The notes beneath the pieces are model-generated. The model was not told the DNA's origin. It searched no databases and saw only the letters and a list, made by a program, of their open reading frames with translations. The position numbers and the translations under genes were made by a program. From positions 1-23,321 of IMG/VR virus record IMGVR_UViG_3300009285_007947: 23,321 nucleotides of DNA, one strand, 5' to 3'. Below are positions 12 to 22,811 of this stretch, one piece after another (the stretch's first letter is position 1; the number at the start of each line of letters is the position of its first letter). The DNA is from a virus.

Positions 12-41
12 TTGACAGTCACCCTATTATTATTTTATAAT
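12..41 (+). promoter_or_regulatory. near-consensus sigma70 promoter
   Basis: TTGACA at 12-17 and TATAAT at 36-41 are both exact consensus hexamers, separated by 18 bases. The predicted start is near 48, directly before the first ATGAACAT element at 50. The repeats therefore lie across the start and early leader, where operators are often found. The transcript would run toward the nuclease gene at 311 with a leader of about 260 bases. The prediction rests on sequence alone. Confidence 0.65.
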
Positions 42-49
42 ATATATAT

Positions 50-2912: not shown

Positions 2913-4752
2913 TGTGTATTATAAGCCTGAGAAAGGCGATACTTGGTATATCCCTGAAGGGAAAGAGAGCAGGCAGTTGAACATGATTGCCGAGCAGATG
3001 GAGTATATGAAGAAGGTGAGAGCGAAGAAGGAAGCGGAGTGGGATGAAGCGGATAAACAATACCAGATGTTTCTGGAGGAGCGGCCAAAGGAGGAATGGC
3101 GGAGTCAGTTGAAACTGCCGACTACGTTTGCGATAGTGGAAACGGCGTTGTCGGAGATGATTGAACAATCGCCTGGGATAAGTCTGCGCCCCCGCGAACC
3201 TGGGGATAAGAAAGCGGCGAAGAATTTGCAGGCGATATGGGATTATACGTGGGAAAAGGGAGATGGAGACCTTGAGCTTTATTATTTTGCCAAGGATTTT
3301 TTAATTTACGGGAATGCCGTTGCAGAGGAATATTATCGGAAAGAGAATAGGGAAGTGAAAAGCATTTCTGAAATGGATGAAGAGACAAACCAGCCGAAGA
3401 AGTGGAAGAAGGTTGAGCGCCAGGAATATGATGATTGTTATTTTGAAACGATTAACTTGAAGGATTTTTATGTGGATGAGATGGCAATGAATTTTTCCAA
3501 GGCGCGGTATTGCGTAAAGCGGCAAATTGTTTCTTATGATACCGCGAAGCAATGGCATGGCCATTATCAGAATTTCAAATACGTGATTGAGGGCAAGAAG
3601 TCGTTGGAATACGTGCCGTGGTTTAAGCCCACCATGGAACTTGATAATAACCAGGTGGAATTGCTGCATTATTATAATAAGGAGCAGGATTTGTATCACC
3701 TGCGCTGCCAAGGGATATTATTGACGAAGCCTGATAACCCGATTCCGTATAAGCATAAAGATTTTCCATTTGTGTGGGGCACGGATGTGCCGCTTCCTCA
3801 TTCGGTGTGGGGAATTGGGGAGCCGAAAATTGTGCAGGGATTGCAACAGGAGAGAGACACGCTGAGGAATATGCGGATTGACACGGTGCATTTGAATATT
3901 CAGACTCAATTTTTAGTGGATGATAGGATAGAATTGGATGACAATGATTTTATTTCGCGTCCTCATGGGATATATAAAGGACCGCCTGGAAGCATTGTGC
4001 CGATTCCTTCTAGGCCGTTATATAACGAGGCGTATCGGGAAGATGAAGCGCTCATGCAGGATATCGTGCGGGCGACGGGAATCGACCCGCAGCCTCCCAT
4101 GCGCGGGGACACGACGGCGACTGAGGTGGCAATCGTGAAGGAGACGCAACTGAAGCGGATTAGGATGAAGCTGCGGTTGATGGAAAGGATGGCCTTGAGG
4201 AGAGCGGCGAGGTTGAGGATTGCGAATATTCAGCAATTTTATTCGATTCCGAAGATTGAGTCGGTAATCGGGGAAAATGGGAAGCCGATCGCGGAAGAAC
4301 AGTTCAGGATGATTCCAAAAATGACAAAAAAAGGAAAGACAATATATTTTACTACGCATCCCGAAGATATTACGGGGGAAGTGGATATTAAAGTGCTCCC
4401 TGGCAGCACGCAGCCAGTAAGCCGCGCGATGGAAGAACAGAAGGCGACAATCAGGTATGATCGCTTGGTTGGTCATCCAGAAATAGATCAGCGTAAATTG
4501 GTCGAAAAGTATTTGGAGGCAACGGGTGAAAACCCTGACGAATACACGATAGAGAAGGGTCCTGAAGGGGGCATGGGAGGAATGGGCGGTCCTGCCGGAG
4601 GTCTGCCTATAGGCCCTAGACCTACTGGCGGTCCTCCTACGGCCCTTTCAAACAGGTTCACGGTTTCCCAAACGGGCGGACCAGCGACTCCGTCAATCGG
4701 GCAAGAAGTCCTTCCTGCGAGGAATATGGGGACGGTGGGAGGAGGATTATGA
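2881..4752 (+). CDS. portal protein
   Basis: This 623-residue dodecameric-ring candidate is the head vertex through which DNA is packed. Visible portal features are a charged helical N-terminus, P-T-T-F-A-I-V-E-T-A-L-S-E-M, the wing segment D-F-L-I-Y-G-N-A-V-A-E-E-Y, and the long stem-helix stretch G-E-P-K-I-V-Q-G-L-Q-Q-E-R-D-T-L-R-N followed by A-T-G-I-D-P-Q and T-T-A-T-E-V-A-I-V-K. The size is close to P22-like portals. The C-terminal 60 residues are Gly/Pro-rich and probably disordered. The ATG at 2881 is preferred over an in-frame TTG two codons earlier. The gene overlaps the terminase end and couples by ATGA to the next ORF. Confidence 0.9.
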   Translation: MPPSSKSRDINVYYKPEKGDTWYIPEGKESRQLNMIAEQMEYMKKVRAKKEAEWDEADKQYQMFLEERPKEEWRSQLKLPTTFAIVETALSEMIEQSPGISLRPREPGDKKAAKNLQAIWDYTWEKGDGDLELYYFAKDFLIYGNAVAEEYYRKENREVKSISEMDEETNQPKKWKKVERQEYDDCYFETINLKDFYVDEMAMNFSKARYCVKRQIVSYDTAKQWHGHYQNFKYVIEGKKSLEYVPWFKPTMELDNNQVELLHYYNKEQDLYHLRCQGILLTKPDNPIPYKHKDFPFVWGTDVPLPHSVWGIGEPKIVQGLQQERDTLRNMRIDTVHLNIQTQFLVDDRIELDDNDFISRPHGIYKGPPGSIVPIPSRPLYNEAYREDEALMQDIVRATGIDPQPPMRGDTTATEVAIVKETQLKRIRMKLRLMERMALRRAARLRIANIQQFYSIPKIESVIGENGKPIAEEQFRMIPKMTKKGKTIYFTTHPEDITGEVDIKVLPGSTQPVSRAMEEQKATIRYDRLVGHPEIDQRKLVEKYLEATGENPDEYTIEKGPEGGMGGMGGPAGGLPIGPRPTGGPPTALSNRFTVSQTGGPATPSIGQEVLPARNMGTVGGGL

Positions 4753-4991
4753 TAAAAGTTTCGGAAAAAACACAGGATTCATTGGCGGAACTGTGGTATA
4801 ATAAGGATTTCCAAGTACTGGTGAAGTTATTGCAGAACCGGCTTGATCTTTTAGGAAAAGGAGTGTTGACTATTAGGGATTCTGAAATAATAAAGGAATA
4901 TCAGATGGAAGCGCAGGTTATTGTAAAGTTTATCAAGAATATTAAAGATGCCGCGCTTAAAGTCGAGAAGCGGCAGAAGAAAGGTAAATAA
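4749..4991 (+). CDS. small phage protein after portal, unknown function
   Basis: This 80-residue helical, charged protein has a Lys-rich end. Its ATG overlaps the portal stop (ATGA at 4749-4752), and a strong GGGAGGAGG lies just upstream at 4737-4745, so it is very probably translated with portal. No catalytic motif is visible. Small helical proteins at this position in other phages are often head-assembly factors, but nothing in the sequence shows that here. Confidence 0.75.
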   Translation: MIKVSEKTQDSLAELWYNKDFQVLVKLLQNRLDLLGKGVLTIRDSEIIKEYQMEAQVIVKFIKNIKDAALKVEKRQKKGK

Positions 4992-4992
4992 T

Positions 4993-5148
4993 ATGCCTAT
5001 CAATAAATTTGTTGATTTCAATAAAAAGATAATGAAAGCGCATATCGGGAAAAAACTTCATGAAGCGCCCACTAAGGGCATGTCCATGAATTTGCGCCCT
5101 GATCTTAAATCTTTCCGCAAAATCGGAAAGAGCAAAAAAGGGATGTAG
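4993..5148 (+). CDS. 51-residue basic protein, unknown function
   Basis: The frame is open from further upstream, but the ATG at 4993 lies right after the preceding stop and follows the purine-rich AGAAGAAAGG, so the upstream extension is rejected. The product is Lys-rich with no Cys and no membrane segment. It sits in a run of tiny genes packed head to tail between portal and scaffold. It may bind DNA or the prohead, but no family is recognised. Confidence 0.6.
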   Translation: MPINKFVDFNKKIMKAHIGKKLHEAPTKGMSMNLRPDLKSFRKIGKSKKGM

Positions 5149-5288: not shown

Positions 5289-5612
5289 ATGTCAATGTGG
5301 AAGTTTTTAAAGACTGATCAGGGGAAAGCGGAATATATCCGCCGCAAGAAGGCAATGCCTGATCTTCCTTCAAATTGGGATTTTCATCTTGCGACAAAGA
5401 ATCTTCCGCTTGAGCGTGCGCAGAAGACAAAAATCCAGATTGCCATGTCGAAGATGGATAAGAAAACGCTGAAGGAAACATTGGATATTTTGGGAAGTAT
5501 GCGTTTCGATGCGATTCGCGCAAAAAATTATAAGATGGCGGCGTACTGCAAAGCGGTGCATGAATTCGGAGAAAAATATTTAATATCGCTTGAATGGCAA
5601 AAGAAAATCTGA
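5289..5612 (+). CDS. hypothetical helical protein
   Basis: The product is 107 residues, taken from the ATG at 5289 just after the preceding stop. An in-frame start at 5238 would overlap the previous gene by 50 bases. It has many Lys, Met and aromatic residues and is predicted mostly helical, with M-S-K-M-D-K-K-T-L-K-E-T-L-D-I-L as one amphipathic stretch. No catalytic motif, signal peptide or membrane span is seen. It is the last of four small genes after portal and overlaps the next gene by 19 bases. Confidence 0.65.
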   Translation: MSMWKFLKTDQGKAEYIRRKKAMPDLPSNWDFHLATKNLPLERAQKTKIQIAMSKMDKKTLKETLDILGSMRFDAIRAKNYKMAAYCKAVHEFGEKYLISLEWQKKI

Positions 5613-6292
5613 AAATTACGATTGGCATCCCGACGAAAGGGTGGTGCGATTCGTCGTTTGCGTATGGGTATGGAGAAATAATGGTGGCGACATTGGCCCA
5701 TGGGCATGAAGTACAGCCGATATTTTCAGTGGGGTCGTTGATTGATGTGGGGCGCAATAGGATTGTGGCGAAAATGATGGGAGATTATCTGTTTTTCTTG
5801 GATGATGATACGCTTCCTCCCGCTGAGGTAATTATAAAATTGTTGGTGCATAAAAAAGATATTGTCACGGCATTGTATTTCAATAGGCAGGCGCCGTATC
5901 AGCCGCAGATTTATTTGAAAAATAAAGAGAATTCGGAACGGTATGATGCCATTCAGGATTATCAAGGATTGATGGAGGTTGACGGATGCGGACTCGGCGC
6001 GTGTCTGATTAAAAAAACAGTATTTGATAAATTAGTGAAGCCTTATTTTTCCGTTAAACTTTCTCCTGAAACGGGAGAACGGCTTATGGGAGAAGATTTT
6101 GGATTCTGTAGGGCGGCGCAGGATGCAGGATTCAAAATTTACGCGGATACGGATATTATTTGTGGGCATATTGCGCGGGATGTGGTGAATGAAACTCATT
6201 GGGAAGGATCAAAGCGGAGATTAGCGCATATTAAAGAGCAGATGGGAGAAGAAAAATTTAATAAATGGAAAAAGGAGTTTCGGGATAATTAG
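5594..6292 (+). CDS. GT-A glycosyltransferase within the head module
   Basis: This 232-residue protein has a GT-A fold and moves a sugar from a nucleotide donor. The first strand is I-T-I-G-I-P-T-K-G. The metal-binding motif is F-F-L-D-D-D-T at 68-73, and the acceptor-side motif is G-E-D-F-G-F-C-R-A-A-Q-D-A-G near 165-178, the usual ED of GT2-like enzymes. No membrane helix is seen. It is separated by about 4 kb from the other glycosyltransferases and lies between portal-associated genes and scaffold, so it may act on a head protein. Base composition matches its head-gene neighbours rather than the AT-richer cassette downstream. Confidence 0.82.
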   Translation: MAKENLKITIGIPTKGWCDSSFAYGYGEIMVATLAHGHEVQPIFSVGSLIDVGRNRIVAKMMGDYLFFLDDDTLPPAEVIIKLLVHKKDIVTALYFNRQAPYQPQIYLKNKENSERYDAIQDYQGLMEVDGCGLGACLIKKTVFDKLVKPYFSVKLSPETGERLMGEDFGFCRAAQDAGFKIYADTDIICGHIARDVVNETHWEGSKRRLAHIKEQMGEEKFNKWKKEFRDN

Positions 6293-7756: not shown

Positions 7757-7983
7757 ATGGCAGTATCTGGCACTGGCACTTCGCGTGCCAACTTTGGGGA
7801 CTTGCTTGAACCAGTCTTCAGGAAGATATTCTTCGACCAATATCAGCAAATTCCCCAGATTTATAGTCAGATCTTCCATGTTATCGAGACTGACCGGCGT
7901 GATCTCCGCGATACTTCAGTGTCCGGTTTCGGACAGTTAGTGGAGACAACGGAAGGCGGTCCTATAACATACGAAGATCCCGT
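7757..7983 (+). CDS. major capsid protein, exon 1
   Basis: This is the first exon of the HK97-fold shell protein. It encodes 75 complete codons plus two bases of Val76, ending Y-E-D-P-(V). It begins MAVSGTGTSRANFGDLLEPV and contains F-G-Q-L-V-E-T-T-E-G-G-P-I, the N-terminal arm/E-loop pattern of Mu gpT-like capsid proteins. The frame continues past 7983 to a stop at 8138, but that extension is intron sequence with a group I core. Joining 7983 to 8765 restores P-V-Q-G-F-D-Y-T-Y-T-P-V-K-F-A-K-G and a 303-residue protein, a normal length for this family. The spliced junction is inferred, not observed. Confidence 0.87.
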
Positions 7984-8166
7984 TAATTTTGTAGCGGCTT
8001 ACAGTCGAGAGATTGTAAGAAAATCCTTTAAATTGCTGGAAACTCTCTTTGAGACAATCAGCAGCCAAATCAGAGAAATTAAAAAATCTCTGAGAGGTTC
8101 AGAGACTATAATAAGGACATCCTTCTGGATGATGGTATAGTCCGAACTCCATGGCGACATGGAGAG

Positions 8167-8712
8167 TCAAGTAGAAATATCTTGATCGTTCTTTGACAAA
8201 GTATTCTCAAACATGGCTATAAGTTTCGTGCGGTTGGTAGTTTTCAAGTCACCGAAGAGCAGGCGTTTCACGAAATAATTAAGCATTATTTCGTAATCAC
8301 GATGTTCTTCTCTGGTAGGAAACAATTTTAGATTATCAGGATGATTATTGATGGTATTTCCATCTTTATGATGTACGGTTTCTTCTGGTTTAAGTGATCG
8401 TTTTAATGTTTTCTCCATTACGAGACGATGTTCTCTAACACGTCGTCCATTAAGAGGAATCATTATATACTCCTTGGTAGAAAAATGTTTTCCGCCATAC
8501 AGTTTTCTATGTTGCCTACCACCCTTCCATCTACCATTCCATTTTCCCATATGGCGTTTGGAGTGAGAACGTCCCTTAAGACCGAATCGTAAAAAAAATC
8601 TTGCCACAGTTTCTCTTTGGACACCGCACATATCAGCGATCTCAGACATTAACATTTGGTCTTTAAAATAACGAGTTTTAAGCCATTGTTTATTACGATA
8701 CATTGTATTCAT
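8167..8712 (-). CDS. intron-encoded HNH homing endonuclease (antisense)
   Basis: This 181-residue protein is encoded opposite to the capsid gene within the intron. Residues 8-45 form a helix-turn-helix resembling the DNA-binding end of other phage HNH enzymes. The HNH core (about 80-140) shows R-E-H-R-L-V-M-E-K, the catalytic V-H-H-K-D-G (H114/H115), N-x-x-D-N-L-K-L-F, and E-E-H (136-137), matching the HNH_3 family. The enzyme would cut intron-less capsid alleles and drive intron spread. Its stop codon lies inside the P9.1-like hairpin. A 17-spaced promoter lies directly upstream, with the predicted start on the ATG at 8712. A second Met codon occurs at residue 4. The opposite orientation is unusual for phage introns. 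Confidence 0.9.
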   Translation of the reverse strand: MNTMYRNKQWLKTRYFKDQMLMSEIADMCGVQRETVARFFLRFGLKGRSHSKRHMGKWNGRWKGGRQHRKLYGGKHFSTKEYIMIPLNGRRVREHRLVMEKTLKRSLKPEETVHHKDGNTINNHPDNLKLFPTREEHRDYEIMLNYFVKRLLFGDLKTTNRTKLIAMFENTLSKNDQDIST

Positions 8713-8714
8713 AA

Positions 8715-8788
8715 GTATAGTGTAATCGTAAGTGATTACTTTGTCAAGAATAGTAACAAAATTGTCAAGGATTCGATTACACCTATAC
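8715..8788. repeat. inverted repeat spanning the 3' splice site
   Basis: GTATAGTGTAATCG (8715-8728) in the intron is complementary to CGATTACACCTATAC (8774-8788) in exon 2 over fourteen pairs, with a single extra C. The 3' splice site (8764/8765) lies in the loop. In the same interval TTGTCAAG occurs twice, at 8741-8748 and at the true junction 8762-8769. The upstream copy is an in-frame decoy that would lead to a stop codon. The stem may mask or present the splice site. Confidence 0.65.
8719..8747 (-). promoter_or_regulatory. minus-strand promoter for the intron endonuclease
   Basis: On the minus strand, TTGACA (8742-8747, exact consensus) and TACACT (8719-8724) are separated by 17 bases. 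The predicted start, seven bases past the -10, is 8712, the A of the endonuclease ATG, so the message would be leaderless. An inverted repeat GTAATC/GATTAC (8722-8727 and 8734-8739) overlaps the -10 and spacer and could bind a repressor. Confidence 0.6.
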
Positions 8789-9449
8789 CCCAGTGAAGTT
8801 TGCGAAAGGATTCAAAGTAACGAAAGAAATGTGGGAGGACGATCTTTACAATATCATGACAAAGATGCCGTCCAAACTCGGTGACGCGGCGCGTCAAACC
8901 GAGGAAACAGAAGCAGCGGATATCTTTGATAATTCTTTCACTTTAGGCATTGGTGGCGATGGGTCGTATCTTTGCGTAACCAATCATGCTCGTGAAGACG
9001 GCGGTACGGTGCAGTCAAATAGACTTTCTGGAAATACTGCGCCTTCAGAAACTACTTTTGAAACGACGCTTGTCGGCATGAGAGGCACGCTTGATGCGAA
9101 GGGTCAAAAAATATTAGTGCGCCCCGACACGATTCTTATTCCAAAAGAATTGGAAAAGGAAGTGTTGGTGCTCTTGAAGTCTTCAGGAAGAACCGCTACT
9201 AACTACAATGAGATCAATCCCTACGAAGGGAGATTGAAGACGGTAGTGTGGGATTATCTTGATTTGACTCAAGCATGGTATGTGCTTGATTCAGGGCTTC
9301 ATCAGCTCAATTTCGTGTGGCGCATTCGTCCTGAATTCGGTCAGGATGAGTCATTCGATACGGATGTTGCACTTTATAAAGTGCGCGAGAGGTTCACGGT
9401 CGGGTTCTCTGACTGGCGCGGTGTCTATGGTTCGACAGGCACTCAATAA
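8765..9449 (+). CDS. major capsid protein, exon 2
   Basis: The second exon supplies the last base of Val76 and 227 further codons. It encodes Q-G-F-D-Y-T-Y-T-P-V-K-F-A-K-G-F-K-V-T-K-E-M, then W-E-D-D-L-Y-N and A-A-R-Q-T-E-E-T-E-A-A-D, continuous with exon 1 and typical of Mu gpT-like HK97-fold capsids. Downstream come the P- and A-domain strands, such as I-L-V-R-P-D-T-I-L-I-P-K and W-Y-V-L-D-S-G. There is no in-frame stop from 8765 on. A GTG at 8793 could be mistaken for a gene start, but it is Val inside the exon and has no ribosome site. The C-terminus is G-S-T-G-T-Q. Confidence 0.9.
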
Positions 9450-9463
9450 TTGATTTTTGCCTT

Positions 9464-9598
9464 ATGAAATGTCCAACTTGCGGAGCTATTATCAACAAAT
9501 GGTATCTGTATGGGATAGATCCTGAGACTGCTGACGCATGTTGCGATAATTGCAAGCATGAACGCAAGGCGAAACCAGCAAAGATAGAGGAGAAATAA
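9464..9598 (+). CDS. 44-residue zinc-ribbon protein
   Basis: This short ORF after the capsid gene encodes M-K-C-P-T-C-G at its start and C-C-D-N-C-K at residues 26-31. Two CxxC pairs (C3/C6 and C27/C30) can bind one zinc, and a Lys-rich tail follows. The size and pattern fit a free-standing zinc ribbon. The stop is three bases before the next ATG, and its last codons carry that gene's ribosome site (GAGGAG at 9587-9592), so translation is probably coupled. The target is unknown. Confidence 0.65.
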   Translation: MKCPTCGAIINKWYLYGIDPETADACCDNCKHERKAKPAKIEEK

Positions 9599-9601
9599 AC
9601 T

Positions 9602-10300
9602 ATGTCTGCTCCCAAACTTTATACGGAGCGAGAATTGCTGGAACGTATTGCGTATCTTGGTCCTAATCCGCATACCGCGGGTGAGGCGACTGTGCGATCG
9701 TATACATGGTCTGGTGCGGTCACTGAAGCAGCCGTGTGGACTCCGCAGTCTGGGAACCGATACGTTGTATCTAACATTGTAGTGAGTGCTTCCGCGGCAT
9801 GTACGGTAACGCTCATGGATGAGGTAAACGACGGCGATCATATATTCTTTTCGCTTTCAATGGCGGGAGATTCGTCTGTCGTAGTTCCTTATCCCATTCC
9901 CCGTCCTTCACGGGCGGTGGATACCGTGATGCGTATTACCACTTCTGCGACGGGCGGCACCGTTACAGTGTATGGCTGGGAAACTGGCATAAGCGTTGAA
10001 ACGACGTCGACTTCTACTTCATCGAGTTCTAGCTCATCGAGTTCTAGCTCATCGAGTTCTAGTTCTAGTACATCGATTTCTAATTCATCGAGTTCTAGTT
10101 CTTACTCCTCGAGTTCTAGCTCGTCTAGTTCTTCGAGTTCGTCGAGTTCATCGATCAGTAATTCGACAAGCTCTTCATCGAGTTCTTCGATTTCTGAAAC
10201 GACGAGTTCCTCGAGTAGTATATCTGCGACATCGTCTTCATCGTCATCCAGTTCGGAATCTCAATCTTCCAGCTCTATCTCGCAGACATCAACTGGTTAA
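9602..10300 (+). CDS. virion-type protein with poly-serine tail
   Basis: This 232-residue protein has two parts. Residues 1-130 look like a compact beta-sandwich (V-S-N-I-V-V-S-A-S-A-A-C-T-V-T-L and T-V-T-V-Y-G-W-E) of a kind seen in small head or tail surface proteins. Residues 131-232 are almost wholly Ser with some Thr, Ile, Asn and Glu. Both TCN and AGY serine codons are mixed throughout, which argues for selection on serine rather than simple repeat slippage. There is no signal peptide or anchor. It has a good ribosome site (GAGGAG). The tail could be a flexible spacer or a dense O-glycosylation acceptor, which is interesting given the glycosyltransferases that start 67 bases downstream. 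No family name can be given with confidence. Confidence 0.8.
   Translation: MSAPKLYTERELLERIAYLGPNPHTAGEATVRSYTWSGAVTEAAVWTPQSGNRYVVSNIVVSASAACTVTLMDEVNDGDHIFFSLSMAGDSSVVVPYPIPRPSRAVDTVMRITTSATGGTVTVYGWETGISVETTSTSTSSSSSSSSSSSSSSSSSTSISNSSSSSSYSSSSSSSSSSSSSSSSISNSTSSSSSSSISETTSSSSSISATSSSSSSSSESQSSSSISQTSTG
10019..10063 (+). repeat. 15-bp tandem repeat in the serine tract
   Basis: TCATCGAGTTCTAGC occurs at 10019-10033 and 10034-10048, with a one-base variant at 10049-10063. Degenerate copies continue to about 10260. The unit is five serine codons, so gain or loss of units keeps the frame and changes only tail length. This makes the tail length a likely site of strain variation. Confidence 0.75.
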
Positions 10301-10316
10301 TAGCCAGAACCATCAA

Positions 10317-10345
10317 GGGGGAGCAGAGCGTTGCTTCGCTCCCCC
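10317..10345 (+). terminator. strong GC hairpin between head operon and glycan operon
   Basis: GGGGGAGC (10317-10324) pairs with GCTCCCCC (10338-10345), with a smaller AGC/GCT stem inside. No T-run follows, so it is not a textbook intrinsic terminator. Its location, just after the Ser-rich gene and immediately before the next promoter, suggests it ends or protects the head transcript. It also overlaps the place where a -35 of that promoter would be. Confidence 0.5.
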
Positions 10346-10351
10346 TGTGGG

Positions 10352-10360
10352 TGGTATAAT
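10352..10360 (+). promoter_or_regulatory. extended -10 promoter of the glycan cassette
   Basis: TGGTATAAT is a perfect extended -10 (TGnTATAAT). A weak -35 (TTGCTT at 10331-10336, 18-base spacer) lies inside the hairpin. The predicted start, seven bases past the -10, is the A of the ATG at 10367, so the first glycosyltransferase would be read from a leaderless message. Confidence 0.65.
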
Positions 10361-10366
10361 TCCAAT

Positions 10367-11680
10367 ATGGAACAAAAGCGCGTTGCAATTTTTTCAACAT
10401 TTTATACCATAGATCCTTCTTATTCTTTGAATAATGTAGTGGAGGATCAAATTTCTATGTTCGTGAACAATGGATATTCCATTGTTTTTTTAGCTGATGA
10501 AGCATTTGAACCGAAGGGGATTTATGCGCATCCTATGGTTATATTAAGGAAATTACCGAAAGCTCAACGCGATAATTACGGCAATCTGAATAATGATTGG
10601 AAGATGGAGACTGGTCGGATGTATGAAGCATTAAAAGTTCATTTAGCAGATATCGATGTGGTATTGGCGCATGATATTACTTTGCAATGCGCTCATATTG
10701 TTTTCAATATCGCTTCACGCCGATTGGCAATAGAACGCCCTGATTTGCTTTGGATTCATTGGTGCCATTCAGCGACCTCGCCTTCCATTCATTGCAATAT
10801 TCCTGAAGCAAGTGAATTGATAAAGCCAAAATTTCCAAATTCAGTAGTGGCATATCCAAATGATTGGGATCGCCCGCGTGTGGCAAGGAATTATCATTAT
10901 GAATTGGATGAAGTATTCTGTGTTCATCATCCGACTGATTTGGCTGAATATTTCGGATTTCATGAATTGACGCGGCAACTTATCAAAGAGAAAGACTTAT
11001 ATTCTGCCGATGTGATCAATGTGTATCCTTGCCGATTGGATCGCGGAAAACAAGTCGAGTACAATATCCGCATGATGGCATCAGTGAAGCGGACAGGAAG
11101 AGACATGCGTTTGATTATCATGGATTTTTCTTCAACAGGAGATGATAAATTGGCATATCGAGAAACATTTTATAAACGGCATGGTGATGGCGGATTGGTG
11201 GAACTGGCAAAATCATGGGGATTGGAGGAAAAAGAGATCACATTTACTTCGATGTGGAAACCGGAAACGAACTATTCTTGTCCACGGCAGATGGTGAAAG
11301 ATTTATTCCTTCTTTCCAATATATACATTCATCCTTCGACTTCGGAAACGTATTCTTTAGTAACGCAGGAAGCGATACTTTGCAAGAATTTTTGCATTTT
11401 GAATCATCATTTCCCGCCCATGCGTAGCATTTATGGAGATAAGAATGTGCTTTATGAGCCATTTGGTTCTGCGGTGGATGCGTTAAGCGGCGATAATGGT
11501 TCAACGCAACTTAATATCCATGACGAAGAAAAGCATTTTTTGAATCTTGCGAATAAGATCAATTATTTTATTGAAAATAATCCAGTGTTGGCAGAGCATA
11601 CATTTATTCGCAAATTCAGGAATCCCGATTATGTGTTTAAACATGAGATTGAGCCGTTAATTAATAGGACGAAATTATGA
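10367..11680 (+). CDS. GT4-type (GT-B) glycosyltransferase
   Basis: This 437-residue protein is a two-domain GT-B enzyme. The N-terminal Rossmann domain begins R-V-A-I-F-S-T-F-Y. The C-terminal donor domain starts near V-I-N-V-Y-P-C-R-L-D-R-G-K (a version of the GT4 GRLxxxKG motif) and contains H-P-S-T-S-E-T-Y-S-L-V-T-Q-E-A with the E-x7-E pair at E327/E335 that contacts the nucleotide sugar. The frame extends upstream to a TTG at 10331, but the ATG at 10367 is chosen because the promoter -10 ends at 10360. This is the first gene of the cassette, and its stop overlaps the next start (ATGA). The sugar donor is unknown. Confidence 0.88.
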   Translation: MEQKRVAIFSTFYTIDPSYSLNNVVEDQISMFVNNGYSIVFLADEAFEPKGIYAHPMVILRKLPKAQRDNYGNLNNDWKMETGRMYEALKVHLADIDVVLAHDITLQCAHIVFNIASRRLAIERPDLLWIHWCHSATSPSIHCNIPEASELIKPKFPNSVVAYPNDWDRPRVARNYHYELDEVFCVHHPTDLAEYFGFHELTRQLIKEKDLYSADVINVYPCRLDRGKQVEYNIRMMASVKRTGRDMRLIIMDFSSTGDDKLAYRETFYKRHGDGGLVELAKSWGLEEKEITFTSMWKPETNYSCPRQMVKDLFLLSNIYIHPSTSETYSLVTQEAILCKNFCILNHHFPPMRSIYGDKNVLYEPFGSAVDALSGDNGSTQLNIHDEEKHFLNLANKINYFIENNPVLAEHTFIRKFRNPDYVFKHEIEPLINRTKL

Positions 11681-12462
11681 GTGAAAACACGTTTTCTATT
11701 ATCATGCCAACTTGTCAAAGAAAGAATCTGATGCAACGGTCTATTCTCTCAGTGTTTAATCAATGGTATCAGAATTGGGAATTGATTGCGGTGGATGACG
11801 GTTCAACTGATGGGACATGGGAGAAATTGCAGGAATATGCGGCGAAAGAACCACGAATGAAAATTATTAAGCATGAGGTGAGGAAACAGAGATGTGCAGC
11901 AATTAATACAGGCATGAGAGCCGCAACAAATGATTGGATTTGTATTTTAGAATCAGATGATGAATATTTGCGGAATTATTTAAATAGTTTGAATTGGGCA
12001 ATAAATGAACATCCACAATATCGTGTATTTCATTTTGGAGCATTAGTGGTAAGGTTAAAATATTGTTCTGTAAGAGAAACACCGAATTATAAAGAACAAG
12101 GGGATGGAATGGAATCAATCAAAAGTGGAAAGTTGGGGATGGGAAGTTTTATATTCAAACGCGAATTATTAAATGAAATTCCTGATCTTTATTTATTTGA
12201 AACTGGCAGTCCATACAAATTTGCGGATTATTATAAAGATAAATTTCCTGAATTTTTGGAAATGTATGGACCGAAATATATGGATGGAGGGAAGGAATTA
12301 GGGAATCCTTGGGGAAATGATGCCGTGATGATGTATCTTTTAACAAGAAAAAATAAAAGCAAGGCATTGCCATTTTTTACTTATGTAAATTATATCCGCC
12401 GTTCTGGATTTATGAATCAAGATGATGACAAGCCGGAGGTTATCCGTTTTTTAGCACGATAG
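11677..12462 (+). CDS. GT2 glycosyltransferase
   Basis: This 261-residue GT-A protein has the classic family 2 layout: F-S-I-I-M-P-T-C-Q-R-K at the N-terminus, nucleotide-binding V-D-D-G-S-T-D-G-T at 39-47, and the metal-binding L-E-S-D-D-E-Y (D94/D95). There is no transmembrane helix, so it is a soluble enzyme. The C-terminal half (G-G-K-E-L-G-N-P-W-G-N-D-A-V-M) holds the acceptor/base region. It couples to the previous gene by an ATGA overlap. A 28-base gap with GGAAGAA follows before the next gene. Confidence 0.88.
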   Translation: MSENTFSIIMPTCQRKNLMQRSILSVFNQWYQNWELIAVDDGSTDGTWEKLQEYAAKEPRMKIIKHEVRKQRCAAINTGMRAATNDWICILESDDEYLRNYLNSLNWAINEHPQYRVFHFGALVVRLKYCSVRETPNYKEQGDGMESIKSGKLGMGSFIFKRELLNEIPDLYLFETGSPYKFADYYKDKFPEFLEMYGPKYMDGGKELGNPWGNDAVMMYLLTRKNKSKALPFFTYVNYIRRSGFMNQDDDKPEVIRFLAR

Positions 12463-12490
12463 CGGGTGCTCCAGGAAGAATTATAGAAGT

Positions 12491-13423
12491 ATGAAAATTC
12501 AAATTATTGCACTTTCGAATCATCTTACCTACGGCGGGATGCGGCAGCGTCTTGAATGGGGATTTAAACAAATAGGTCATGAAACAGTAGAAGGGAGTCC
12601 TGATGTGGTATTGGTAATTGGTCAATCAGCTCTATGGAATGACGTAAAACAATATGGAGTTCCTGTATATCTCTGGTGTCATGGTGTAGATATAGGAAAT
12701 TTTGAAAGCGCTAATAATAAAAAATTGAGAACAGTGTATGATAACTGTGCAGGAGTAGCATATCAGTCAACATTTGCCCGTAATATGACATGGCGGGCGT
12801 TTGGAGAGAAAAAAGGTTCGATTATTTTTAATGCGGGGATACCTAATTTCGGATCTATATATCCGATATGTCTCCCAGGAGGACGAATCGATGTCGCAAC
12901 TACGGCAATTTGGCGAGCTTGGAAACGTTTGCCAGAAACTGAAAGACTGGTACGCGAAGCGAATGATCAAGGCAGGAATATCCATTTGTGGGTTGGCGGT
13001 AAAGAGGGTGATTCTGGATCTCCTTTCATCCATTACATGGGCATGCTTCATGATTTTGAGCATTATCATAAGTGTCATTTCTATCTTCAATTATCGTTCT
13101 GCGATTATTCTCCAGGTACTGTGGGTGAGGCTCTCGCAATGGGACTCCCAGTCCTTACCGTCAATTCTGGAGGTGCTAAAGAAATTGTGGACGGAGCAGG
13201 AATCGCATTAGATAATGATCCGATACCAGAAGGGTCTATAAATGTGAATGATGAACGGAATATTCCAAAGATTAATACTGATAATTTTTGGCGCGGGTTT
13301 AATCAGATGACGCGGGAGGCGTATGAATTTTATCGCAATAAAGTCATTGAACGGGTAACGACAGTGGCAAATGCTGAATATAGCGCTCGACAATTTATCG
13401 ATTTATTTAATGGTTTAGAATGA
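12491..13423 (+). CDS. GT4-like (GT-B) glycosyltransferase
   Basis: This 310-residue enzyme has a short N-terminal domain (M-K-I-Q-I-I-A-L-S-N-H-L-T-Y-G-G-M-R-Q-R-L) and a C-terminal GT-B donor domain. The donor domain includes H-L-W-V-G-G-K-E-G-D, then D-Y-S-P-G-T-V-G-E-A-L-A-M-G-L-P-V-L-T and G-G-A-K-E-I-V, the usual nucleotide-sugar loop of GT4 proteins. It is smaller than a typical GT4 enzyme (350-400 residues). It has no membrane segment. GGAAGAA lies 12 bases upstream. It is likely a later step in the same glycan. Confidence 0.83.
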   Translation: MKIQIIALSNHLTYGGMRQRLEWGFKQIGHETVEGSPDVVLVIGQSALWNDVKQYGVPVYLWCHGVDIGNFESANNKKLRTVYDNCAGVAYQSTFARNMTWRAFGEKKGSIIFNAGIPNFGSIYPICLPGGRIDVATTAIWRAWKRLPETERLVREANDQGRNIHLWVGGKEGDSGSPFIHYMGMLHDFEHYHKCHFYLQLSFCDYSPGTVGEALAMGLPVLTVNSGGAKEIVDGAGIALDNDPIPEGSINVNDERNIPKINTDNFWRGFNQMTREAYEFYRNKVIERVTTVANAEYSARQFIDLFNGLE

Positions 13424-13427
13424 ATAT

Positions 13428-13964
13428 ATGGCGAGAATTAATAATCTCATTTCACAATTTATTCCCTATAATAATACTTGGCGGTCGTGGCTTGATATTG
13501 GCACAGGAAATGGATTGGTGGCGCAAGAAATGCGCGGTTTTAATTCAATGCCTCGTAAAATAGCGATGGATGCGGGATCATTTCCTGAAGATGTGCAGGA
13601 AGGTATGGGTCATTATTTAGATGCTTCATGGGAAAAGATACATGAAAATTTTACTCAGAATGGAAAATTATGGAATGAAACATTTGATGTAGTGACATTG
13701 ATGGATGTAATTCAATATTATCCGAAACCAGATGCGACTGTTCTTTTAGATCATTTAGACGAAATTGTCCGTCATCTCATTGTTATTTGGACACCTGATG
13801 GATTGTATCCTCATCCAGGGCATGTATCTGGTTGGGTTGCTGATGAATTTCTAGATCGCGGATATAGCGTGTATAAAGCGATTGGTTTTCATCAAGGTCC
13901 TCCGCAAGTAGGAAATGGACTTTTAGCGTGGAAGAATCCTGAATGGAGAAAGATTTATATATGA
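13428..13964 (+). CDS. class I SAM-dependent methyltransferase
   Basis: This 178-residue protein has motif I at W-L-D-I-G-T-G-N-G-L-V-A (21-32), an acidic strand-2 end (A-M-D-A-G), and F-D-V-V-T-L-M-D-V-I-Q-Y-Y after strand 4. It is a small Rossmann methyltransferase of the Methyltransf_23/25 type. Set between glycosyltransferases, it probably methylates a sugar or a glycan end rather than DNA. No target-recognition domain is present and the catalytic N/D-P-P-Y of DNA amino-methyltransferases is absent. It starts four bases after the previous stop. Confidence 0.8.
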   Translation: MARINNLISQFIPYNNTWRSWLDIGTGNGLVAQEMRGFNSMPRKIAMDAGSFPEDVQEGMGHYLDASWEKIHENFTQNGKLWNETFDVVTLMDVIQYYPKPDATVLLDHLDEIVRHLIVIWTPDGLYPHPGHVSGWVADEFLDRGYSVYKAIGFHQGPPQVGNGLLAWKNPEWRKIYI

Positions 13965-14530
13965 AAGAATTCCCTGATCAAGAAAAACTTTACAATGAAC
14001 GTTGTGAACGGTTAAAGCTCTCGCGTGGGTTGTATAAAGAAGATTTGTTGCATCTTTTAGAGCAAGCGATGTATATTCCTTTAAATGGCATATATGTAGA
14101 AATTGGCGTGGCGAATGGATCGTCGCTTATGGCAATATCATCATTTCGTCCTGATGTTTATTGTTTTGGCATTGAAGAAAATGAAGGATGCAAAGCGGAT
14201 AAAAATATTGAACAGGAAGGAATAAGAAATACGCAGATTTTATGGGGAAAATCTGAAGAGATTTGTAAAACATGGGATAAAGAGATTGATTTGTTGTTTA
14301 TTGACGGTGAACATTATATGAAGAATATATTTTGGGATTGTTTAGGGTGGTTTCCGTTCGTGAAACAGGAAGGCACAATCATGTTTCATGATTATGAAAA
14401 GCCTGAAGAAGGGAAACATGAGGTGGGGAAAGCAGTGCAGATTTTCAGGAATCATCCGAAATATAAATGTATGATTCCTTCAGTGGATGAGATTATTTCA
14501 ACGAGCATGGTAATCTTGAAAAAGTTATGA
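13961..14530 (+). CDS. class I SAM methyltransferase (Methyltransf_24-like)
   Basis: This 189-residue protein is taken from the ATG at 13961, which overlaps the previous stop as ATGA and follows GGAG at 13945. An in-frame ATG at 13943 is less likely. Motif I is Y-V-E-I-G-V-A-N-G-S-S-L (45-56). Later motifs are C-F-G-I-E-E-N, L-L-F-I-D-G-E-H-Y and G-T-I-M-F-H-D-Y. The D-G-x-H and F-H-D-Y pairs are typical of the O-methyltransferase-like family found in polysaccharide and macrolide-sugar loci. It is a likely sugar O-methyltransferase in this pathway. Confidence 0.82.
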   Translation: MKEFPDQEKLYNERCERLKLSRGLYKEDLLHLLEQAMYIPLNGIYVEIGVANGSSLMAISSFRPDVYCFGIEENEGCKADKNIEQEGIRNTQILWGKSEEICKTWDKEIDLLFIDGEHYMKNIFWDCLGWFPFVKQEGTIMFHDYEKPEEGKHEVGKAVQIFRNHPKYKCMIPSVDEIISTSMVILKKL

Positions 14531-15108
14531 AACTCCATTTAGCGTCGGGAACTGTTTATTTGGAGGGATATCAGAACATTGATTTAGAAGGGGAATTGGC
14601 ATCAGAACATCCTGAATTAGTGGAAATTTGTAAAACAACTATTGATAAATATTATAAGTATCCGTTTCGGCAAAACATGTACAATAAGGTTGCGGATATA
14701 AAAGCAGATGTGAGAGATTTATTGATGTTTGCGGATGAGACAGTGGATGAGATATTATGCGTGAATTTGATAGATCATTTTAAAAGAGTGGAATTTAGGA
14801 AAACATTGTGGGAATGGTATCGCGTATTGAAACGTGGCGGTCAACTTATTATTGATATTGATGATCGAGAGAAACAAGCAAAAATGTTTTTGGAAGCGAA
14901 AACGGTAAAAGAATTGGAATGGGGATTGCGTCTTTTATATTGTCATCATCGCACGCTGTACGATACGCATTATTGGGGATATACGCGGAAATATCTACAA
15001 TGGATATTGGAACAAACTGATTTTAAAGTGCTTTGGATTCGGGATGATTACATTGTGCATGATATGTATCCAAATTTTCAGATTTGCGCGGAGAAAATTG
15101 TTTTATGA
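14527..15108 (+). CDS. class I SAM methyltransferase (Methyltransf_11-like)
   Basis: This 193-residue protein begins K-L-H-L-A-S-G-T-V-Y-L-E-G-Y-Q-N-I-D-L-E, the variant motif I / post-I (L-x-L-G-C-G...W-x-N-I-D) common in methyltransferases of glycan loci. It continues with D-V-R-D-L-L-M-F-A-D-E-T-V-D-E-I and W-Y-R-V-L-K-R-G-G-Q-L-I-I-D, the motif-III region of ubiE-like enzymes. It is the third methyltransferase in a row, and the three are too different to be recent duplicates. It couples by ATGA at both ends. The acceptor is unknown. Confidence 0.82.
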   Translation: MKLHLASGTVYLEGYQNIDLEGELASEHPELVEICKTTIDKYYKYPFRQNMYNKVADIKADVRDLLMFADETVDEILCVNLIDHFKRVEFRKTLWEWYRVLKRGGQLIIDIDDREKQAKMFLEAKTVKELEWGLRLLYCHHRTLYDTHYWGYTRKYLQWILEQTDFKVLWIRDDYIVHDMYPNFQICAEKIVL

Positions 15109-15770
15109 ATAAAACATCGATTATCGTAGTAGCGTATGATCGTTTAAAAATTTCTCGCCATATTACCAGTGCGTGTTTAGGAACAGTACAAGCATATACT
15201 GATAGAGAAGAATATGAGTTGATATTGATTGATAATGATCCTGTGGGAGAATTGAACAGAAAATATAATATTATTGAATTGGATAAACATATTACGATAC
15301 AAGATATAGGATATGCGGCATCGGTAAATATGGGCGTTAAATTATCTACTGTATCTTATCCGTATATATGTCTTTTGCATAATGATGTGTTTGTGCAGGA
15401 AGGCTGGCTCCAAACGCTTATTCAAGAAATGGAATCACAAAATGGAGATGTGATTATGCCAGGACAGAATCCTTATACACGAGAACAAATTAAAGGATTG
15501 CGGAAAGGAGAAAATATAAACATGTGGAATGATGCGGGATTGATGCTCATGAGACGGTCTTTATTTGAAAAAATGGGAGGGTACGATGAGAGATTCAGGG
15601 CAATATATCATCAATGGAGTTTTGGGAGAAGATTAGGAGAAGCAAACAGTATAATGTGTTATACCAATAAAACTATTATTATCCATATCGGTGCTGCAAC
15701 GCTTTTAAATGATGAAAATTATTTTCATGAACGGCATAATATAGAATCGCCTTTTACTCAAGAATTATGA
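15105..15770 (+). CDS. GT2-like glycosyltransferase
   Basis: This 221-residue product is taken from the ATG at 15105 (ATGA overlap, with GGAG at 15090). The upstream in-frame start at 15084 lies inside the previous gene. It is a GT-A fold protein with T-S-I-I-V-V-A-Y-D-R, L-I-L-I-D-N-D-P, and the metal-site variant L-L-H-N-D-V-F at 90-96. N-D-A-G-L-M-L-M-R-R-S-L-F-E-K-M-G-G-Y-D-E-R-F resembles the acceptor loop of rhamnosyltransferase-like GT2 enzymes. The usual final E-D is not obvious, so activity is probable but not certain. Confidence 0.83.
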   Translation: MNKTSIIVVAYDRLKISRHITSACLGTVQAYTDREEYELILIDNDPVGELNRKYNIIELDKHITIQDIGYAASVNMGVKLSTVSYPYICLLHNDVFVQEGWLQTLIQEMESQNGDVIMPGQNPYTREQIKGLRKGENINMWNDAGLMLMRRSLFEKMGGYDERFRAIYHQWSFGRRLGEANSIMCYTNKTIIIHIGAATLLNDENYFHERHNIESPFTQEL

Positions 15771-16582
15771 AAATATCAATTATCATTCCCGTATACGCAA
15801 AAACCGACAAAGGTTTTGTTAAACTTTGTCTTGAATCTATCCATAAGTATTCAAAAGAAAAACATGAAATCATCGTATGTGTGAATCCCGCATTGAATAT
15901 TGAAGGATATGAAGATTTGCCCGCAACATATGTAATTGCTTCAGATATTCAAGGCCAATGGCACGCGAACAATGTTATGGTGCGGAAAGCGAGCAATGAA
16001 TGGATAATGCTTATTGATGATGATACAGTTTTGCCGTCGAATTGGGAGGAGATATTTGAGCACTTGGAGAGCGATGTAGTTTCAATGAATTGCATGGAAC
16101 CAGATCGTTTTGGGAGGGGTTATGCGCCGCCATTTGTAAAATGCGATTGTGGAACCACTCCTGATACATTTGATTGGGTAAAGTTTGAGAAGATGGCATT
16201 GGAGTTGCGGGAGGAGAAAATGGAATCAGGGAATTCTTATCCATTTCTTTTTAAAAAATCTCTTTGGGAAAAGATTGGCGGATGGGATGAACGATATGAT
16301 CCATGGGGTTCAAATGGCGATTCGGACTGGCTCTACCAGTGTGTGCTTGCTGGTGTTGAGCCTCTACGTTGGCGTGGAGTGTTTGCGTATCATATTAGTC
16401 AGATCTCAGGAACATTTACGCTTCCTGAGGCTGATGATTATTTGGCACGTAATCGCAGTATGTTTGAAAAAAAATGGGGAATTGTACGAGTAGGGAGTCC
16501 TGATATCTGGTATGCAAAATTAAATTTACCAAATCCAAATTTAAGATTTAAACCTTCTTGGACTGATCCTAAATTTGTATGA
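15767..16582 (+). CDS. GT2 glycosyltransferase
   Basis: This 271-residue GT-A protein begins K-I-S-I-I-I-P-V-Y. It has the metal motif M-L-I-D-D-D-T-V-L-P (D84-D86) and the acceptor loop W-E-K-I-G-G-W-D-E-R-Y-D-P-W-G-S-N-G-D-S-D-W, which carries the catalytic-base Asp cluster. It has ATGA overlaps with both neighbours, so it is an internal cistron of the cassette. No membrane helix is present, so the acceptor is likely a soluble or protein-bound glycan. Confidence 0.87.
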   Translation: MKISIIIPVYAKTDKGFVKLCLESIHKYSKEKHEIIVCVNPALNIEGYEDLPATYVIASDIQGQWHANNVMVRKASNEWIMLIDDDTVLPSNWEEIFEHLESDVVSMNCMEPDRFGRGYAPPFVKCDCGTTPDTFDWVKFEKMALELREEKMESGNSYPFLFKKSLWEKIGGWDERYDPWGSNGDSDWLYQCVLAGVEPLRWRGVFAYHISQISGTFTLPEADDYLARNRSMFEKKWGIVRVGSPDIWYAKLNLPNPNLRFKPSWTDPKFV

Positions 16583-17550
16583 ATATCTCAATGTTTTATA
16601 ACGATGGATTGAATGAAGGTCAAGTGAGAGATGAAGTTAATATTCACCATACTTTATCTTATTATGGAGGTCACACTTATCCTAGATGGGAAGAATTTTG
16701 GCCTATCAAGGTTACAGTGAATGATGAGGAATCAGTTCTTGAAGCTGATCTTATTCTTGCATTTAATGGTAATCAAGTGAGTCCCGAAAAGATACGTGAA
16801 TGGAAATCAAAAACTAAAGCACCAGTGTGGTTTTGGACATTCGATAATTGTGATCGCCGTCCTGCAATTTATAATATTATTAAAGAATGTGATTTATGGT
16901 TAGGCGAAGAATTGGGAAGAAGAGAACGTTTTAAAAAAGAAGGATTACCATTTTATTATTTTCCTCTTCATGCGGGAGATGAAAAAGTATTCCGTCCTTT
17001 TGATCCGCCGATTGATCATACTAAACCTTATGATGTTACTTTCATGGGAACTCCTTATGGAGCGGAAATGAGGAAAGAATTGCTTCTTGCCGTGCAAGAA
17101 AAATTTGATTTGCATGTATGGGGCAATAATCCAGAAAGTTGGAAAAATTGGGGAATTAAAAATGTGCATGGTCCTGCATTTGATCAAGCAGCAAATGAGA
17201 TTATTAATCAAAGTAAAATAATATTAGGAGTATCTAATTGTTCATGTGAAGGATATTGGTCGGTACGTACTGCTTGTGTAATGTTGGCAGGAGGTTTTCA
17301 TATTGTGCGCTTTACTCCTCAAATGGAAAAAGAATGTGGTGATGGTGTTATATATTTTTCAGATATTGAAGATTGTTTAAAAAAAATAGAATATTATTTA
17401 GATAAAGATTCTCCCTGTTCTTGGCAGAGAAGAATTCATATACAAGGAAGAGCTAATAATATTGCTTATAATAAATTAACATTTCAAATTCGATGTCATG
17501 AATTGATGGTGTTGTTTCAACATCGTAATCGTTTGATGCAAATGATATGA
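16579..17550 (+). CDS. CgeB-like GT-B glycosyltransferase
   Basis: This 323-residue protein resembles CgeB/DUF3880-type glycosyltransferases, known from spore-coat and maturation glycosylation and from phage genomes. Features are a short N-terminal domain with V-W-F-W-T-F-D-N-C-D-R-R, then Y-D-V-T-F-M-G-T-P-Y-G-A-E-M-R-K-E at the start of the C-terminal domain. I-L-G-V-S-N-C-S-C-E-G-Y-W-S-V-R-T-A-C-V with L-A-G-G-F-H-I-V replaces the usual R-x-F-E...G-G loop. CgeB relatives often act on proteins, which would fit modification of a virion protein. It overlaps the HNH gene start by ATGA. Confidence 0.78.
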   Translation: MNISMFYNDGLNEGQVRDEVNIHHTLSYYGGHTYPRWEEFWPIKVTVNDEESVLEADLILAFNGNQVSPEKIREWKSKTKAPVWFWTFDNCDRRPAIYNIIKECDLWLGEELGRRERFKKEGLPFYYFPLHAGDEKVFRPFDPPIDHTKPYDVTFMGTPYGAEMRKELLLAVQEKFDLHVWGNNPESWKNWGIKNVHGPAFDQAANEIINQSKIILGVSNCSCEGYWSVRTACVMLAGGFHIVRFTPQMEKECGDGVIYFSDIEDCLKKIEYYLDKDSPCSWQRRIHIQGRANNIAYNKLTFQIRCHELMVLFQHRNRLMQMI

Positions 17551-18098
17551 AGAGAATATTTTATAGAAATAAAAAATTAAGAAGATGTTCGAAATGCAAG
17601 AAATTTAAATTAAATAGTTTAAAATTTTTCCGTTATCGAAATGAAGAAAATAGGAATAAAGAATTTCGTTCTTCGTGTCGTATGTGTGAATTGAAGTCAT
17701 GGACAGAAGATTGGTATAAGAAAAATAAAGAATCAAGAAAGCAATATAAGAGTCAGGATTGGTATTTAAAATATAATAGGATATATGCTAAAAAATATGC
17801 ATCTTTACATAAAAAAGAACGGTCATTTTGGCAAAGGAGAAGGGTTATTCGGAGATTGGAAAATGGAGGTAATCATACATTAGATGAATGGGAAGATTTG
17901 AAAAAAAAATTTGGCTATAGATGTCTATGTTGTAATAGGAAGGAGCCTTTTATTAAATTAACTGCTGATCATGTGATACCGTTAAATTATGGAGGAAGAG
18001 ATGATATAAAAAATATTCAACCATTATGCTTACCATGTAATTGTAGAAAAAGATTTCAAATAATTGATTTTCGAAAATTATATGGAAGAAAAATATAG
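17547..18098 (+). CDS. free-standing HNH endonuclease
   Basis: This 183-residue protein is very Lys/Arg-rich. The N-terminal zinc motif is C14-x2-C17...C44-x2-C47 (the CxxC...F-R-S-S-C-x-x-C type common in phage HNH proteins). A basic linker follows, then the HNH fold at 122-166: C126/C129, L-T-A-D-H-V-I-P (catalytic D141-H142), N-I-Q-P-L-C-x-x-C (N156, C161/C164). It is markedly AT-richer than its neighbours. It sits neatly at a gene junction: its ATG overlaps the CgeB-like stop (ATGA) and its end overlaps the aminotransferase start by 17 bases. It is probably a homing endonuclease that targets this locus in related phages. Confidence 0.88.
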   Translation: MKRIFYRNKKLRRCSKCKKFKLNSLKFFRYRNEENRNKEFRSSCRMCELKSWTEDWYKKNKESRKQYKSQDWYLKYNRIYAKKYASLHKKERSFWQRRRVIRRLENGGNHTLDEWEDLKKKFGYRCLCCNRKEPFIKLTADHVIPLNYGGRDDIKNIQPLCLPCNCRKRFQIIDFRKLYGRKI

Positions 18099-20452: not shown

Positions 20453-20507
20453 TAATACGATGTTCAAGTTCTCCCGCATGTTGATTGAGCATTGGGAATC
20501 GCTATGA
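20445..20507 (+). pseudogene. 20-codon relic of a glycosyltransferase 5' end
   Basis: The frame from the ATG at 20445 reads M-F-D-N-T-M-F-K-F-S-R-M-L-I-E-H-W-E-S-L and then stops. The gene at 20950 starts with M-I-I-A followed by V-F-D-V-N-N-F-R-F-T-K-D-L-I-A-H-W-E-S-L. Eleven of twenty positions are identical, including the whole of H-W-E-S-L. The relic ends exactly where the HNH gene begins (ATGA at 20504). It looks like the 5' end of a glycosyltransferase gene cut off by the HNH insertion, or the stump of a lost paralogue. Confidence 0.65.
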
Positions 20508-20953
20508 AAAGAAATCCTCCTCATTATTATGGTAAGGATCATCCTTCATGGAAAGGAAATAAAATTACTAATATAACATGGTTACATACCTGGTTAAGAA
20601 ATAATTATGGTTTTGCGGATCATTGTGAAAATCCTTCATGTGAAGATGAGTCAGATTGTTTTGATTGGTCGATGCTTCATAATAAAAAGGGCGATAATCG
20701 GAGAGCATGGTTCATTCAGTTATGTAGGAGTTGTCATTTAACGTATGATTATACTCCTGAACGTAATAAGAAAAAACGTCGTGCGATGCAAAAATTTTGG
20801 AGAAAAAATTCTAAATTGCGCGCCCGTTATAGAAAGGATTTTAAAGGAAGAAAAATTACATGGACTCAGGAGATACTAAAAAGTAGAAAAATAGGAAAGA
20901 AAAAGATGAAAAAAAGAAATAATATTATTAGTGGCTTAAAAAAGATAACATGA
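20504..20953 (+). CDS. free-standing HNH endonuclease
   Basis: This 149-residue protein is taken from the ATG at 20504; a TTG four codons earlier is also in frame. The N-terminus Y-Y-G-K-D-H-P-S-W-K-G-N is the start motif of a phage HNH family. W-L-H-T-W follows, then zinc ligands C41/C46 and C74/C77, W-S-M-L-H-N and L-C-R-S-C-H-L-T-Y-D. Beyond residue 82 is a Lys/Arg-rich tail likely to grip DNA. It is AT-rich like the other homing genes. Its start overlaps the stop of the glycosyltransferase relic and its stop overlaps the ATG of the complete glycosyltransferase, so it sits within one gene's former 5' end. Confidence 0.82.
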   Translation: MKRNPPHYYGKDHPSWKGNKITNITWLHTWLRNNYGFADHCENPSCEDESDCFDWSMLHNKKGDNRRAWFIQLCRSCHLTYDYTPERNKKKRRAMQKFWRKNSKLRARYRKDFKGRKITWTQEILKSRKIGKKKMKKRNNIISGLKKIT

Positions 20954-22701: not shown

Positions 22702-22795
22702 GGAGAAGCGCGTTGCAGTCTTTGGGTTCTCCATCGGGGCGGGAGATCCGTGCAACGCGCATCTTTTTGTAAGTCCCTGATGGAGAACCCAGAGA
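22702..22795 (+). ncRNA. interleaved stem structure, candidate attenuator RNA
   Basis: Two long pairings cross each other. GCGCGTTGCA (22708-22717) matches TGCAACGCGC (22751-22760) perfectly. 22719-22735 (core GGGTTCTCCATC) matches 22779-22795 (core GATGGAGAACCC) over 17 pairs with one G-U. The order A-B-A'-B' is that of a pseudoknot. B' also contains CCCAGA, the 5' arm of the terminator. In addition, GGAGAA at 22702-22707 can take TTCTCC (22727-22732) away from B'. The transcript therefore has mutually exclusive folds with and without the terminator, as in attenuators or riboswitches. No known class is recognised. Confidence 0.6.
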
Positions 22796-22811
22796 TTATT
22801 CTGGGTTTTTT
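22788..22811 (+). terminator. intrinsic terminator of the glycan operon
   Basis: CCCAGA (22788-22793), loop GATTAT, TCTGGG (22800-22805), then six T (22806-22811). This is a classic Rho-independent terminator and the only clear one in the window. Its upstream arm is shared with the 22719-22735/22779-22795 stem, so termination may be conditional. Confidence 0.85.

Follow-up and report, generated by a model that had tools for sequence, protein, structure and literature searches.

The analyzed stretch of DNA, herein referred to as the window, is a viral sequence of 23,321 nucleotides (IMG/VR record IMGVR_UViG_3300009285_007947). Its capsid gene is split by a predicted group I intron, and a predicted gene for an HNH homing endonuclease lies inside this intron on the opposite strand. 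The locus contains the following features:

7757-7983, plus strand: exon 1 of the capsid gene (ORF start, splice junction)
7974-8164, plus strand: ribozyme from P1 to P9 by the Rfam match (folding energy z-score of -3.75 for 7974-8210)
7980-7997, plus strand: P1 helix, CCGU/UA (7980-7985) with UAGCGG (7992-7997) (sequence, Rfam alignment)
7984-8764, plus strand: group I intron of 781 nt (RF00028, restored frame, 3' end motif)
8085-8107, minus strand: hairpin and T run resembling a terminator, beyond the 3' end of the HNH gene (consensus only)
8147-8164, plus strand: P9 hairpin (pairing intact across 12 introns; both sides changed in 5 of 7 pairs)
8166-8186, plus strand: P9.1 hairpin (pairing in 97% of cells; both sides changed in all 6 pairs)
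8167-8712, minus strand: predicted HNH homing endonuclease gene, 181 aa (Pfam HNH_3, phrog_7545, homologue in the L026 intron, I-HmuI fold match)
8188-8203, plus strand: 5' arm of P9.2, within the opposite-strand HNH gene
8719-8747, minus strand: candidate sigma-70 promoter TTGACA-17-TACACT (10 of 12 consensus positions)
8737-8751, plus strand: 3' arm of P9.2, the complement of which contains the TTGACA hexamer
8752-8764, plus strand: conserved intron 3' end AGTAACAAAATTG, common to other viral introns
8765-9449, plus strand: exon 2 of the capsid gene (ORF, restored frame, capsid alignment)

Joining of position 7983 to 8765 yields a single open frame of 303 amino acids with one stop, and without splicing the capsid frame ends at 8140. 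The joined protein was matched by the Pfam families Phage_capsid_4 (87 bits) and Mu-like gpT, as well as by major head proteins in PHROGs. Uninterrupted capsid relatives with about 30% identity were found in 21 phage records. Four of these, at 30-32% identity, were aligned over the junction EDPV|QGF, and none has a gap at that point. Since the restored 303-aa capsid aligns in this gap-free manner to uninterrupted proteins, the splice call is well supported by sequence. No close relatives lacking the intron were found in the viral contigs, and phages yielded only the capsids of about 30% identity. The sole other copy of the locus found, on a 16.8-kb contig, differs by 1 base over 10.7 kb and is not independent. 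The capsid gene is followed by an ORF (9602-10300, plus strand) with a long serine-rich C-terminal stretch.

In the Rfam search, the group I intron model RF00028 scored 90.1 bits (E 3.6e-22) against a gathering score of 50, and its match at plus-strand positions 7974-8164 covers the entire length of the model. This is the sole group I intron match in the window, and the pattern of the ribozyme P7 region has a single occurrence there and none in the shuffles. The sequence has what defines the group I type, namely a P3-P8 core with P7, a U-G pair at the splice site in P1, and a terminal G (G8764) at which exact excision restores the capsid gene. The 5' splice site follows U7983, which is the U of the P1 U-G pair, and CCGU, the end of the 5' exon, pairs with the intron GCGG. 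A search of bacterial genomes for the intron pattern gave no match.

When G residues from 8165 onward were scanned as possible intron ends, only 8764 and 8770 kept the frame. The former is favored because it ends the motif AGTAACAAA..G at 8752-8764, which is the terminus of other viral introns of the same type; 8770 was rejected on this ground. In introns without an endonuclease gene, the motif is located 57-71 nt downstream of P7, and AGTAACAA was found in that post-P7 stretch in 13 of 132 intron places (those with a located P7, among the matches listed) versus 0.45 expected, the 13 places representing 10 distinct sequences. In the window, the motif sits 3' of the HNH gene, directly after P9.2. 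A P10 helix may be drawn between 7987-7991 and 8766-8770, and P9.0 between AA 8145-8146 and UU 8762-8763. The preliminary description had placed a group I intron in the capsid gene with these two splice sites. The covariance-model match confirms the intron, and the restored capsid, the U7983-G pair and the conserved terminal motif agree with both sites. The sequence TTGTCAAG, 8 bases long, is found at both 8741 and 8762; it was considered as an I-TevI-like operator and dismissed, being so short that chance suffices.

The protein encoded at 8167-8712 on the minus strand, inside the plus-strand intron at 7984-8764, was matched by HNH_3 (PF13392) in Pfam just over the threshold (26.5 bits, cut-off 24.8) and by 14 PHROG families in total, including phrog_7545 (E 1.4e-19, residues 4-139). 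Its HNH catalytic motif stands in an intact frame, with H114, H115, N123, and N127 kept among 22 relatives and N119 also present in the L026 protein described below. The structure model has a moderate mean pLDDT of 71 for the full protein and values above 90 for the HNH part. A sequence search of solved structures (PDB) with the protein gave no significant match. No relatives of the HNH protein were confirmed in bacterial genomes. The top PDB match of the model was I-HmuI (probability 0.97, but E 0.095 and TM 0.31), a phage intron HNH homing endonuclease.

The introns bearing the 3' terminal motif form three hairpins downstream of P7, namely P9, P9.1, and P9.2, with P9.2 immediately 5' of the motif in each. 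For P9 and P9.1 over 12 motif-bearing introns, 98.7% of cells are paired and 11 of 13 pairs are changed on both sides. This covariation far exceeds that in 500 shuffles and in every slid control; the structure was read from those same 12 sequences, and the shuffle comparison is not a probability. In the window, P9.2 is a 15-pair stem with one bulge, drawn with the approximately 530 nt in between omitted. Among 2000 base shuffles, 2 reached its duplex energy, as did 8 of 2000 equally spaced segment pairs drawn at random from the window. The pairing of these arms places the HNH gene in the loop of the predicted helix P9.2. The gene reads leftwards and continues across the P9.2 5' arm into P9.1, the complement of which codes the final HNH codons and the stop, and it ends at 8167, three bases past P9. 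Thus, the antisense HNH gene proposed earlier downstream of P9 is indeed present, and its position can be narrowed to the P9.2 loop with an overlap of the 5' arm and P9.1. Sense nuclease genes, HNH and Vsr-like, occupy the P9.2 slot in two other viral introns (L042 and L065), so this slot accepts either gene orientation.

When viral contigs were scanned for the P7 pattern, at least 119 stretches were obtained. One of the introns, herein referred to as L026 (IMGVR_UViG_3300029286_001127; RF00028, 63.7 bits), contains an antisense gene for a 204-aa protein (HNH_3, 42.8 bits) that is 34% identical to the HNH protein of the window across 180 residues and has the C-terminal LSKND in common with it. 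The joined exons of L026 weakly match the same capsid family (PF25209, 36.3 bits), with the insertion after about residue 153 of the capsid versus residue 76 in the window. The P9.2 arms of L026, TTCTTTGA and TCAAAGAA, pair perfectly, and the duplex by itself is not unusual (energy reached by 338 of 2000 shuffles). Because this independent relative carries an antisense HNH gene in the same slot at a different capsid site, the antisense layout is maintained. A combined pattern of P7 and the common C-terminal coding stretch was found only in the introns of the window and L026 in the collection. In the HNH protein tree, both belong to a supported set of four; their sisterhood is unsupported and the branches are long.

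The exact TTGACA hexamer, previously read as a promoter for the HNH gene, is present upstream of it as part of the candidate sigma-70 promoter. The promoter reading itself is less secure: the hexamer can be explained by the P9.2 pairing alone and makes weak promoter evidence, because the sequence of the 3' arm is tied to the other arm, and minus-strand sites scoring 10 of 12 were found at nine places within 23 kb. By a rough estimate, the chance of such a site within 50 bases upstream of the HNH start is about 2%. Judged from these letters, the site is a possible promoter for the HNH gene. If the site is used, its transcript would begin at the 8712 ATG itself and thus be a leaderless mRNA; no Shine-Dalgarno sequence is evident upstream of 8712. 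Apart from the HNH gene, no ORF on the minus strand of the window makes a convincing gene, and the other gene-like ORFs are located on the plus strand. Hence, read-through from a minus-strand gene further upstream is not evident, and some minus-strand start must exist if the HNH gene is expressed. A perfect promoter-like site, TTGACA-18-TATAAT, was found on the plus strand at the left end of the window (12-47).

These data bear on the possibility that the ribozyme splices and the HNH gene is an expression-silent passenger, derived from a free-standing HNH gene, with mobility by its own enzyme lost. Consistent with such an origin, most other HNH relatives in the viral contigs lie at places without a group I match nearby; the Rfam search around them found no intron beside an HNH gene, the lone match (L159) being 2 kb off. 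The P9.2 pairing, which accounts for the -35 hexamer, and the lack of a visible ribosome-binding site point the same way. Against it, the frame is intact, the HNH core residues are kept, and a 34%-identical protein is found in the same antisense slot of L026, which would not be expected for a silent gene; we therefore regard a silent passenger as quite unlikely. The window and L026 might represent a capsid-intron lineage in which P9.2, the C-terminal HNH codons, and the promoter -35 box are one inverted repeat serving ribozyme structure, enzyme, and minus-strand expression, so that the enzyme would be expressed independently of the late transcript that it could silence. This proposal is a doubtful one.

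The novelty attributed to the antisense layout in the preliminary description was overstated, since the capsid gene of mycobacteriophage LittleE contains an intron, most likely of group I, with a homing endonuclease frame on the bottom strand (PMC3706429). Splicing of that intron in infected cells was demonstrated in 2013 by RT-PCR and protein sequencing (PMC3706429). Like that of the window, the LittleE intron (JF937101, capsid gene 13, about 0.8 kb) has an antisense endonuclease gene in a major capsid gene, and the stop of gp14 lies a few bases past P9, a layout confirmed on the record. The two differ in capsid and host, as well as in the enzyme, which is of the LAGLIDADG_3 family in LittleE (Pfam, 23.3 bits) and HNH in the window. 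In JF937101, gp14 (9064-9597, minus strand) is annotated as an HNH endonuclease, and its Pfam match to LAGLIDADG_3 agrees with the original paper (PMC3706429). The LittleE ribozyme scored 30.7 bits with RF00028, under the cut-off, compared with 90.1 bits for the window.

Other known systems share single elements with the window. I-HmuI of SPO1 and I-PfoP3I of Pf-WMP3 are likewise HNH enzymes within phage group I introns, but they are encoded on the sense strand. Their host genes are DNA polymerase genes, not capsid genes (PMC3428280). A nuclear rDNA intron of Didymium squamulosum L2066 contains an antisense gene for an active enzyme, I-DsqI, in P9.2 (PMC9548176). The position of the gene is the same as in the window, whereas the host DNA is eukaryotic rDNA, the enzyme is of the His-Cys box type, and the ribozyme belongs to group IE. 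IStrons likewise carry a protein-coding cassette within a group I intron, in the 3' terminal stem (PMC4227781); their cassette is a transposon located downstream of P9.2, whereas the gene of the window is in P9.2 and no transposase is present. An IStron identity was rejected, as no transposase or TnpB ORF was found in the intron and only nuclease and DNA-binding families were matched. No mention of antisense genes was found in a limited search of the literature, covering homing endonucleases and the introns of bacteria and phages.

Two scans provided at least 130 distinct introns, a sample biased by the search patterns. Among the matches listed, 63 antisense ORFs of at least 100 aa were found near introns, and only three of them match nuclease families: HNH_3 in L026, LAGLIDADG_3 in L109, and Endonuclease_7 in L041. 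With the window, this makes four antisense nuclease genes versus roughly a dozen sense ORFs with nuclease family matches, again among the matches listed. Antisense endonuclease genes are thus a real minority layout in phage introns, as had been suggested. The abundance of antisense ORFs raises the question of whether 8167-8712 is a chance open frame opposite the intron. The rarity of nuclease matches among them, the HNH_3 score above its cut-off, the 14 PHROG families, and the homologue in the same place in L026 refute this by homology, and its probability is practically negligible. In L109, the antisense LAGLIDADG gene (5411-6193, minus strand) directly follows P9 in a group I intron of a phage primase-like gene, and its protein is homologous to sense endonucleases of other introns. 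The L041 case is a candidate: an Endonuclease VII-type gene (4498-5034, plus strand) is antisense to an intron core that lies downstream of a structural-looking phage ORF (5434-7152, minus strand).

Antisense genes are often found in capsid genes (the window, L026, LittleE, and possibly L041), which would fit a regulatory device uncoupling the endonuclease from late capsid transcription, with antisense RNA tuning splicing. The preliminary description had likewise suggested that the layout separates endonuclease from late capsid expression and that antisense transcription could disturb splicing. The terminator-like site at 8107-8085, which would stop antisense RNA within the ribozyme core, would also fit such a device. 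The orientation looks permissive, however, because the antisense LAGLIDADG gene of L109 is in a primase gene, a sense LAGLIDADG gene lies beside a related capsid gene in L006, and the P9.2 slot holds sense genes in L042 and L065. A regulatory role of the layout is therefore possible but rather unlikely.

Taken together, the locus is very likely a phage capsid gene interrupted by a mobile group I intron whose P9.2 loop holds an antisense HNH homing endonuclease gene; as far as the letters tell, intron and antisense gene are both real and the element is probably mobile. We infer that the ribozyme would excise 7984-8764 from the transcript and join the exons, restoring the capsid mRNA, and that the reversed HNH gene in the P9.2 loop would leave the catalytic core intact. 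Production of the HNH protein would depend on transcription of the minus strand, for which the simplest source would be a promoter a short way upstream of 8712, inside or beside the P9.2 3' arm. In mixed infections, the enzyme may then nick or cut capsid alleles that lack the intron, and repair would copy the intron into them. The window and L026 add two related but divergent phage introns with antisense homing endonuclease genes to the one described earlier. They also pinpoint the position of the gene as P9.2, which in other viral introns is either empty or occupied by a sense gene. It thereby becomes testable whether orientation matters for how a selfish enzyme encoded within a strongly expressed late gene is itself expressed, and whether antisense RNA costs the phage splicing.

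Several other features were observed in the window. A long near-perfect inverted repeat (22717-22797) lies past the gene ending at 22697; its Rfam match as a miRNA is sub-threshold, occurs on both strands, and is surely spurious. ORF translations indicate that the capsid genes are followed by a long series of genes resembling those for glycosyltransferases and methyltransferases (10331-17550 and 20950-22697, plus strand), which is unusual in a small phage contig. A DegT/DnrJ-type aminotransferase gene (18064-20262, plus strand) contains an intein with a LAGLIDADG_2 domain. Directly 5' of it is a second HNH gene (17547-18098, plus strand; HNH_5, endonuclease VII-like), and it is followed by a small HNH-like ORF with no Pfam match (20492-20953, plus strand).
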